This document shows positions 5,643 to 49,675 of a DNA stretch of 64,000 nucleotides, piece by piece. The notes below the pieces were generated by a model. It saw only the letters and a program-made list of their open reading frames with translations, was not told the origin of the DNA and did no database searches. Position 1 is the first letter of the stretch. Each line of letters begins with the position of its first letter. The DNA is taken from the NCBI RefSeq assembly GCF_021631985.1, contig NZ_CP070225.1, positions 1,426,001 through 1,490,000 of the forward strand, read 5' to 3'. Made by a program: the position numbers and the translations under genes. Source of the stretch: Sandaracinus amylolyticus (GTDB lineage Bacteria > Myxococcota_A > Polyangia > Polyangiales > Sandaracinaceae).

Positions 5643-6215
5643 ATGCAGTCGCTCGGTCAGCTCGACGGAGAGGTCGGTCGGTGGCTCGACACCTACGATC
5701 GCGACGTCCGCCGCGCGTTCGAAGAGTGTCGCCGGGGCGACTGGCTCGTGCGCATCGCGATGAGCGTCGGCGTCGCGCGCCCACTCGTCGTCATCGCCGC
5801 GGCCGACGCCGCGAGCATCGCGATCAAGCGGACACGTCCCTCCGATCTGCGGCCGGGGCGCGCGGTGTTGACCGCGACGAAGTGGGCACGCGGCGAGTGC
5901 GGCCCGGCCGACGCGTGGGCCGCCGCGTTCGCGGCGACGCAGGCGGCCGAGGACATCGCGAAGGAGTCGGTGCTGGTGTCCGAAGCGGCGCTCGCCGCGG
6001 CGGCGGCGTGCTTCGCGTGCGATCCGCGCGCCGACGACGCGTACTACGCGCAGCGCGCCTATGCGGCGCAGGCCCTCGATCACGCGGTGCGCGCGTTCGG
6101 GACCGAGGCGCACGTCGGTCGCCAGCGCTGCCTCGAAGCGACGCGCGAGCGGATCACGCTCGACGTGCTCGCGAGCGCGGTGTCGCGCGCGAGCGTGCTC
6201 CCGCCCGCGCGGTGA
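5643..6215 (+). CDS. Small Ala-rich helical protein, possibly Imm-5-like
   Basis: 190 residues, with no signal peptide or membrane segment. It is Ala-rich and helical, with repeated A-A-D-A-A and A-A-F-A-A-T-Q-A-A-E patterns and a central W-A-R-G-E motif. This layout resembles proteins annotated as putative immunity protein Imm-5, but the match is from memory and weak. There is no toxin gene next to it, so an immunity function is not supported by context. The ATG at 5643 is preceded by an excellent Shine-Dalgarno, AGGAGGTG, 5 bases away. The 93-bp tandem repeat begins directly after its TGA stop. Confidence 0.6.
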   Translation: MQSLGQLDGEVGRWLDTYDRDVRRAFEECRRGDWLVRIAMSVGVARPLVVIAAADAASIAIKRTRPSDLRPGRAVLTATKWARGECGPADAWAAAFAATQAAEDIAKESVLVSEAALAAAAACFACDPRADDAYYAQRAYAAQALDHAVRAFGTEAHVGRQRCLEATRERITLDVLASAVSRASVLPPAR

Positions 6216-6485
6216 GTCCCGACGGGAGTGCTCGTCCCGCCGGTCCCGGACGGGAACGCGCGAAGCGCGTGGACGGTAGGGACCGGCGGGCGAGCCGATG
6301 TTTCGATGGTCCTCACCGGAGTGCTCGTCCCGTCGGTCCCGGACGGGAGCGCGCGAAGCGCGCGGACGGTAGGGACCGGCGGGCGAGCCGATGTTTCGAC
6401 GGTCCCGACGGGAGTGCTCGTCCCGCCGGTCCCGGACGGGAACGCGCGAAGCGCGTGGACGGTAGGGACCGGCGGGTGAGCCGAT
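6216..6485 (+). repeat. 93-bp tandem repeat, 2.8 copies, each with a nested hairpin
   Basis: Three units start at 6225, 6318 and 6411 with an exact 93-bp period; the last is truncated at about 6485. In unit 1, CCGCCGGTCCC (6237-6247) pairs perfectly with GGGACCGGCGG (6279-6289), and an inner stem ACGCGC (6256-6261) pairs with GCGCGT (6265-6270). In unit 2 the inner stem is GCGCGC/GCGCGC, a compensatory A-T to G-C change that argues for a selected structure. The array sits between a TGA stop and the convergent aminopeptidase stop. Related single copies occur at about 19299 and 29738. No other gene is seen between 6216 and 6492. Confidence 0.8.
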
Positions 6486-6492
6486 CCTCGAT

Positions 6493-9198
<2,706 letters not shown>

Positions 9199-18709: not shown

Positions 18710-20434
<1,725 letters not shown>

Positions 20435-28580: not shown

Positions 28581-29737
28581 GCGACGACCCGCGCGCCTCG
28601 ACCGAGTCGCTCATCACGCCGCTGCCGACGCCGGAGAACGGCGTGCCCGTGCCCGATCTCGCGCTCGCGCGGCAGCGCATCGACTCGATCGACGATCGCA
28701 TCCTCGACCTCCTCGCCGAGCGCGCGGAGGTCGTGGGCGCGGTGCGTCGTGCGAAGCAGGCGAGCGGCGCGCCCGCGCTCGATCCCGAGCGCGAGAAGGC
28801 GCTGCTCGAGCGTTTGCTCGAGCGCGGCGCGGGTCGCTTCCCAAAGCCGGCGATCCTCGCGGTGTTCCGCGAGATCCTGAGCGGCTGCGTGTCGCTCCAG
28901 GCGCGCGTGACCGTCGCGTATCTCGGTCCGCAGGGCACGTACTCGCACGCGGCGGCGCGGGCGCTCTTCGGCTACGCGCCGCAGTACATCGAGGAAGCGA
29001 CGATCGACGGAGTGTTCGAGTCGGTGCGTCGCGGTCGCGCGGTCTACGGCGTGGTGCCGATCGAGAACTCGACCGAGGGATCGGTCGCGGGCGCGATCGA
29101 CGCGCTGATCGAAGGTGGCTGTCGCATCCGTCGCGAGCTGGTGCTGCCGATCAAGCACTGCCTGCTCTCGAACGTCGAGTCGCTCTCCGAGGTGCGCCGC
29201 GTCTACTCGCACCCGCAGGCGCTCGCGCAGTGCCGCAAGTACCTCGCGAACAACCTGCCGCAGGCGCAGATCGTCCACACCGCGTCGACCGCGCTCGCGG
29301 TGCGCGAGGCCGGTGGCGACGCGAGCGGCGCGGCGATCGGAAGCTCGCTCGCGGGCGAGATCATGGGCGTGCCGGTGCTCCGCGAGGGCATCCAGGACAT
29401 CGCGTTCAACGCGACGCGCTTCGTGATGATCGGCAAGGACGACGCGAAGCCGACCGGCCGTGATCGCACGACGTTCACGTTCATCATCGCCGACGAGACC
29501 GAGCGCGGCGCGCTGCGGCGCACGCTCGGGGTGCTCGAGGACAACGGCGTGAACATGACGCGCATCGAGTCGCGGCCGAGCCGTGATCGTGCATGGCGCT
29601 ACGTGTTCGTGATCGACGTCGAGGGGCACCGCGAGGACGAGAACGTCGCGGCCGCGCTCGCCGCGCTCGAGACGCGCGTGCAGGCGCTGACGGTGCTCGG
29701 CAGCTACCCGCGCTACCCGGACGTCGAGACGAAGTGA
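28577..29737 (+). CDS. pheA: Bifunctional chorismate mutase / prephenate dehydratase (P-protein)
   Basis: 386 residues. It converts chorismate to prephenate and then phenylpyruvate, the start of the Phe branch. An AroQ-type chorismate mutase helix domain (about 27-112: L-A-L-A-R-Q-R-I-D-S-I-D-D-R-I) is followed by prephenate dehydratase (G-P-Q-G-T-Y-S-H-A-A, E-N-S-T-E-G-S-V, and the catalytic T-R-F region). A C-terminal ACT domain (about 300-375, G-V-L-E-D-N-G-V-N-M-T-R-I-E-S-R-P) should bind Phe for feedback. The GTG start at 28577 overlaps the malic enzyme stop. It is the last gene of the operon. Confidence 0.95.
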   Translation: MSDDPRASTESLITPLPTPENGVPVPDLALARQRIDSIDDRILDLLAERAEVVGAVRRAKQASGAPALDPEREKALLERLLERGAGRFPKPAILAVFREILSGCVSLQARVTVAYLGPQGTYSHAAARALFGYAPQYIEEATIDGVFESVRRGRAVYGVVPIENSTEGSVAGAIDALIEGGCRIRRELVLPIKHCLLSNVESLSEVRRVYSHPQALAQCRKYLANNLPQAQIVHTASTALAVREAGGDASGAAIGSSLAGEIMGVPVLREGIQDIAFNATRFVMIGKDDAKPTGRDRTTFTFIIADETERGALRRTLGVLEDNGVNMTRIESRPSRDRAWRYVFVIDVEGHREDENVAAALAALETRVQALTVLGSYPRYPDVETK

Positions 29738-29768
29738 GTCCCTACCGGGGTGCTCGTCCCGGACGGTC
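29738..29768 (+). repeat. Truncated copy of the dispersed 93-bp repeat after pheA
   Basis: Directly after the pheA TGA the sequence GAGTCCC-TACCGGGGTGCTCGTCCCGGACGGTC matches the beginning of the repeat at 6214-6255, lacking an internal GCCGGTCCC. It fills the 31-bp gap between the convergent pheA and PEGA-like genes. No terminator hairpin is left in this copy. Confidence 0.5.
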
Positions 29769-49057: not shown

Positions 49058-49675
49058 GTGGCTCGGATTTCAGCAGTGGTTCTTCTCGCGCTCGCGCTCG
49101 TCGCGTGTGGTGACGACGACGGCGCGGACGGCGTCGACGCGGGCGGTGGCACCGACGCGGGCGCGATCGACGCGGGCCCGCGTCCCGACTCGGGTGGCGG
49201 CTCGGGCGATTCGTGCGCGGAGGACGAAGATCCGGTGGCGACGGTCGGCTGCAATGGGTGGGCGAGCGGCACGCCGGCGGCGAACGAGCCGGGCGGGACG
49301 TGCACGCCGGGCGGCGAGTCCGATCCAGGCGGCAGCTGCACGTCGGCGACGGGGTTCTGCGCGGCCGAGGACGGCGCGACCGAGGGCACCTGCCTCGCGG
49401 TCTGCACGCCGGCGGCGACGTACGTGTCGCGCGGCGAGTGTCCCTCGGGCCACCGCTGCTTCACGCTCGGCGAGGGCGAGGACGCGATCGGCATCTGCTT
49501 CCGCGACTGCGACGCGACGCACGCGTGCCCGACCGGTCAGGAGTGCGACGACGAGGGCTCGTGCGTCGACATCGAGACCGATGGCGGCGTCGAGATGACC
49601 GATGCAGGCGTCGAGATGAGCGATGCAGGCGTCGAGGCCGACGCGGGCACGGACGCGGGCACCACGACCGAGTGA
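49058..49675 (+). CDS. Cys-rich lipoprotein, paralogue B
   Basis: 205 residues. The signal ends in lipobox A-L-V-A-C (Cys16), followed by acidic D-D-D-G-A-D and D-A-G repeats. The Cys pattern (G-C-N-G-W, N-E-P-G-G-T-C-T-P-G, C-P-S-G-H-R-C-F, G-E-G-E-D-A-I-G-I-C-F-R-D-C-D-A-T-H split at Cys) matches paralogue A. It has an extra C-terminal tail of D-A-G-V-E-M type repeats. The GTG start at 49058 has AGGATGAGG just upstream; a longer frame start lacks a signal. It is followed by a strong terminator. The 227-bp gap before it holds only the hairpin at 48886. Confidence 0.75.
   Translation: MARISAVVLLALALVACGDDDGADGVDAGGGTDAGAIDAGPRPDSGGGSGDSCAEDEDPVATVGCNGWASGTPAANEPGGTCTPGGESDPGGSCTSATGFCAAEDGATEGTCLAVCTPAATYVSRGECPSGHRCFTLGEGEDAIGICFRDCDATHACPTGQECDDEGSCVDIETDGGVEMTDAGVEMSDAGVEADAGTDAGTTTE

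Follow-up and report, generated by a model that had tools for sequence, protein, structure and literature searches.

A palindromic repeat family directly behind stop codons in Sandaracinus, probably a non-autonomous mobile element

What kind of sequence is the series of head-to-tail hairpins that directly follows the stop codon of a gene in Sandaracinus amylolyticus, and what put it there? The array lies in a stretch of 64 kb (64,000 nucleotides, hereafter the window) of the source genome. It was originally predicted, from the letters alone, that it could be a palindromic mobile unit or a stabiliser of RNA 3' ends. Below we describe the array and its relatives, the position of the family with respect to genes, the alleles of a sister species, and the explanations that may account for them.

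The array and its relatives in the window

Tandem-repeat analysis returned a period of 93 for window positions 6216-6485, with 2.9 head-to-tail copies and a match of 92%. The host gene on the plus strand (5643..6215, on the basis of the coding-score gene call and the sequence), to which no Pfam family could be assigned, ends in the TGA at 6213-6215 directly before the array, and a convergent gene called on the minus strand (6493..9198) has its stop, TCA on the plus strand, at 6493-6495, just past it. Copy 1 (6216..6308, plus strand) comprises a leader (6216-6229), two outer arms (6230-6247, including one bulged T, and 6279-6295), an inner stem (6256-6261/6265-6270) and a T-rich tail after GCCGA. 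It is followed on the same strand by copy 2 (6309..6401) and copy 3 (6402..6491), the latter ending in CCTCGA, the conserved right end of the family (consensus GCCGATTTTTCGACAGTCTTCGA). Each copy folds into an outer stem of 5 + 12 pairs with one bulged T, inside which two middle pairs and then a 6-bp inner stem are found, with z-scores of -4.5, -3.4 and -4.3 for copies 1, 2 and 3 against dinucleotide shuffles. Copies 1 and 3 share the inner stem ACGCGC/GCGCGT, in place of which copy 2 has GCGCGC/GCGCGC, so that both sides differ. The original prediction of 93-bp tandem copies with hairpin stems and a compensatory change in the inner one is confirmed by these data. No Rfam match above the gathering threshold was obtained within the 64 kb.

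Two related copies had also been claimed in the window, and all three loci had been placed right after a TGA. One relative is real: a diverged single copy (19290..19374, plus strand; 79.8 bits with the covariance model) lies between two genes that we take to be ilvH-like (stop at 19282-19284) and ilvC-like. Its outer stem is poor (fold z-score +1.3), and its core begins 14 nt, not 9, after the upstream stop. The other (29738..29764, plus strand) is, judging from the sequence, a 5' remnant only, which the covariance model does not list at E-values up to 1, but it does directly follow a TGA (29735-29737). Elsewhere in the window, at 49563-49636, a 21-bp unit (GACCGATGCAGGCGTCGAGAT) occurs in about three copies.

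Copy number, distribution and position at stop codons

The family was sought in the source genome (10.96 Mb, two contigs, C1 and C2), in a sister Sandaracinus species (one contig of 10,327,335 bp) and in a fragmented 6-Mb genome of the same genus. A genome-wide search for the consensus, as had been proposed for the array, brought up hundreds of copies: full-length units with both ends exact numbered at least 273 in the source genome and 122 in the sister species, against 0 with a reversed-pattern control. A 14-base motif (GGAGTGCTCGTCCC, at most one mismatch) occurred 269 times in the source genome, against 13 times for the reversed pattern. The covariance model reported at least 150 copies in each of the two species, and none in the fragmented genome or in six members of the same family. 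In a BLAST search of 56 genomes, strong matches were likewise confined to the source genome and the sister species. The exact two-arm pattern retrieved nothing from 84,980 named genomes, a set from which near records were possibly left out, and a relaxed pattern matched four stretches in the same set. One of these (L197), from a metagenome-assembled genome (MAG) labelled Nannocystis, contains one true copy, directly behind a TGA; the contig is 67-84% identical, in matching pieces, to Sandaracinus genomes. The planctomycete and betaproteobacterial matches (L198-L200), as well as weak matches in other families of the order, were judged to be chance or unrelated hairpins. Outside the two carrier species the repeat family is nearly absent. 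As a separate observation, two planctomycete MAGs (L198:1289-1350 and L199:5909-5968) share a hairpin, GGAGTGCTCGCC...GGCGAGCCGATTTTTTT, which is present once per genome, in both cases some 60 bases downstream of the same gene, and forms a terminator-like stem that resembles the Sandaracinus repeat.

To specify the position relative to genes, we used 1.66 Mb of the source genome, namely four 400-kb blocks and the window, chosen irrespective of copies, with genes called by a six-frame dicodon model trained on the genome. The covariance model identified 65 loci in this sample, which were divided into subfamilies on the basis of short motifs, some loci being mixed. In the main subfamily (F1), characterized by TCCC...GGGA arms and GGACGG, the stop codon ends exactly 9 bases before GGAG in 26 of 38 loci and 8 bases before it in 4. 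Thirty of the 38 are therefore within 1 base of the common distance on the same strand, compared to a null of 0.5%, the share of noncoding positions that near a same-strand stop. In a set of left ends from all the sequence examined, which overlaps the loci of the 1.66-Mb sample, the nearest TGA was found exactly 9 nt away in 51 of 70 cases in the source genome and in 7 of 14 in the sister species. The bias towards stop codons suspected from the window is thereby strongly supported. That the adjoining stops are mostly TGA is as expected, given that TGA makes up 88% of the stops in the genome. As a plain target motif TGA was ruled out: outside coding sequence there are 2983 non-stop TGAs versus 1088 stop TGAs, and about three F1 copies at most are located at a non-stop TGA.

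In the second subfamily (F2; CAGCTGGAGTGCTCGCT..., CGCACGG, inner stem CGTGC/GCACG), the right end adjoins the stop of a convergent gene, so that the orientation is opposite to that of F1, and the copies often have a TCAG repeat on both sides. Considering this reverse orientation, the exact abutment is not bound to one strand of the hairpin. The genes with copies behind them are of ordinary kinds (RuvB, AroK-AroB, Lon, ClpB-like, LysR, MoxR), which argues that the repeat was not spread by gene duplication. No clear replication-strand bias was observed (23+/24- and 30+/26- in the genome halves).

The paired changes that had been expected were found across subfamilies and almost never within one. 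Within a single subfamily, where the sequence is too uniform for a test, one pair showed a two-sided change. In an alignment across subfamilies (36 sequences), 93% of the cells pair, and two-sided changes affect 10 of 23 pairs in 52 cells, values reached by 0 of 500 shuffles; kinship inflates the two-sided counts, yet slid structures, a control that retains kinship, fall far short of the observed pairing. The palindrome has thus been maintained across subfamilies, whether as DNA or as RNA. As a measure of selection on the RNA strand, the ratio of G.U to A.C was not significant in F1 (36 to 23, p 0.12), and the ratio in F2 (43 to 11) was driven by two inherited positions.

Alleles in the sister species

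The two Sandaracinus genomes show synteny in inverted order, with flanks that are 81-98% identical, and alleles could be compared at 28 of the 65 loci, being those for which both flanks were found in the sister sequence examined. At about 12 F1 loci the repeat is absent from the sister species and the gene ends there in the same stop codon. Clean insertions relative to the sister allele were observed at C1:2143100, 4889826 and 5068638. At some other sites the sequence is replaced instead, as at window position 6216, where the sister species lacks the array, shows in its place a hairpin of some 31 bp that is unrelated to it, and resumes at TTCAGCTCG. The repeat is present in both species at 2165602, 2378602 and 4866198, and some copies found in the sister species are missing or shortened in the source genome. 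Since the empty sites keep the same stop, the repeat was gained or lost as a unit beside a stop codon that already existed, and the possibility that it supplies its own stop, as some GTAG REP ends do (PMC3733652), was ruled out for most sites. Gain and loss of the whole repeat are recurrent and occur in both lineages; site by site, a precise loss in the sister species and a gain in the source genome are indistinguishable. In the gap between the ilvH- and ilvC-like genes, window 19285-19400 and its counterpart at C1:6057676 of the sister species hold unrelated hairpins between conserved flanks; an attenuator or an exchange of one hairpin for another could lie behind this.

The unit measures 84-105 bp and has GGAGT at the foot of its hairpin. 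Arrays of two to five units are common, some of them consisting of identical units. Arrays with a period of 41 bp and differing sequence were noted as well, one per species (L097:19119-19470, C1 ~2.339 Mb of the source genome, and L181:1348-1575, ~5.201 Mb of the sister species).

Origin and possible role of the repeat

We consider it likely that the family is a mobile palindrome of about 100 bp, non-autonomous and restricted to the genus, that is placed 3' of stop codons and then multiplied locally. Single copies would insert immediately downstream of the stop of a gene already in place, and inserted copies would multiply into head-to-tail arrays. In the transcript every copy would form the beginning of the 3' UTR, its hairpin foot lying 14 nt behind the stop and a short T-run following. 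The presence of hundreds of copies at unrelated genes and of empty orthologous sites supports the mobile unit of the original prediction and suggests spread by transposition. Several points count against this explanation: a search for mobilising enzymes found none, F1 has no consistent target-site duplication, gain and precise loss look alike at single sites, and the TGA motif does not account for the position immediately at the stop, so that a targeting step without a known mechanism has to be assumed.

A mobilising enzyme was found in neither carrier. The Y1 family (PF01797; RAYT, IS200/IS605) gave no hit over the cut-off in any of the three Sandaracinus genomes, and the same search did detect it in control genomes and in another member of the same bacterial family (G007), which has the Y1 gene and lacks the repeat. 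The association with a RAYT-like gene that had been suggested as a check is therefore not supported in either carrier genome. The Y2 family (IS91, PF04986) occurs once in the source genome, as an IS91-type transposase at C2:208463-209062, close to the end of this second contig, which is probably a plasmid, and not in the sister species. An IS91-type mobiliser was rejected, as PF04986 is not present in all carriers.

Among the alternatives, it is unlikely that the repeat is a miniature element (MITE) of a DDE transposase that makes 8-9 bp target duplications and prefers gene ends. Like a MITE, the Sandaracinus repeat is short, non-autonomous and dispersed and has empty alleles, and a few copies are flanked by direct repeats of 8-9 bp: C1:72529 (TCAGTCGG), 9281659 (TCGCTCAG), and 268289 and 5090126 (GTCGATGG). 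These four are three F2 copies and one F1 copy at a non-stop site, whereas F1 shows no consistent target-site duplication. Most F1 loci have none, and at least 7 bases are common across the element at 14 loci versus 8.3 by chance. Moreover, apart from the hairpin there is no evident terminal inverted repeat, and the position is locked to stop codons.

Rather improbable, too, is a REP/REPIN family of the classical type, mobilised by a RAYT (Y1 HUH) transposase. REP units measure 20-40 bp, often form inverted pairs and carry an unpaired GTAG or CGTC tag at the foot of the hairpin. The Sandaracinus repeat resembles REPs in distribution, and the likeness extends to the palindrome, the high copy number, the preference for gene 3' ends and the compensatory changes between subfamilies (for REPs see PMC2817692 and PMC3733652). 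RAYT genes, however, are described as obligately associated with REPs (PMC2817692), and the Y1 results given above speak against a RAYT in the carriers. Considering the lack of a Y1 transposase and of a tag, the longer head-to-tail unit with its inner hairpin, and the exact abutment on a stop that is kept in the empty allele, we have not filed the repeat as REP/RAYT.

Equally doubtful is the view that no mobile element is involved and that selection maintains what are simply intrinsic terminators or mRNA 3' stabilisers, spread by recombination. The hairpin foot 14 nt behind the stop fits this view, as do the sense hairpin and subsequent short T-run of F1 (in many copies 3-5 T after a 3-nt spacer) and the unrelated hairpins that the sister species has in the same place at both window loci. 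In E. coli, REPs that follow a stop codon by no more than 15 nt were reported to affect translation, acting on terminating ribosomes (PMC12306157); the hairpin distance is comparable, although the sequences are unrelated. Near-identical sequences at unrelated genes and the empty alleles argue against it, as does F2, which is antisense to the stop that it adjoins. In addition, a terminator scan, which required a GC-rich hairpin with 5 or more T among the next 8 bases, found none at the window array, the G.U/A.C test was not significant in F1, and the copy between the co-directional ilvH- and ilvC-like genes counts against strong termination. A function as RNA 3' stabiliser or terminator is possible. 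For the mobile repeat proposed above, protection of the 3' end or weak termination would be plausible, and any effect on the mRNA may include effects on terminating ribosomes.

It is also rather unlikely that termination codons themselves, irrespective of orientation, are the target of insertion and that the responsible process detects where a reading frame ends, for instance via the mRNA or the terminating ribosome, and not a DNA motif. Integron attC sites are likewise imperfect palindromes directly behind a stop codon, but a cassette structure is absent and the Sandaracinus hosts are core genes in conserved synteny; to our knowledge the repeat contains no recognisable attC core motif. Finally, a translated repeat that lengthens proteins at the C terminus, suggested by the open frame and the window period divisible by three, is most improbable, since the repeat sits behind stop codons, its changes preserve pairing and just 19 of 48 array periods (72-100 bp) are multiples of three, which makes the open frame incidental, as had been surmised.

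We found no published description of the Sandaracinus repeat in the open literature, and a search for myxobacteria and REP returned nothing relevant. By a term search of the S. amylolyticus genome paper, the only scans mentioned are those with CRISPRfinder and ISfinder (PMC5010890). Closeness to gene ends is usual for short palindromic repeats; in this family the placement is precise to a single base, the empty allele has the same stop, and neither carrier contains the enzyme known to act on repeats of this kind. The family therefore allows a concrete test of targeting to stop codons. With matched empty alleles available in a sister species, its hundreds of naturally occurring 3'-UTR hairpins could also be used to measure what they do to the mRNA.
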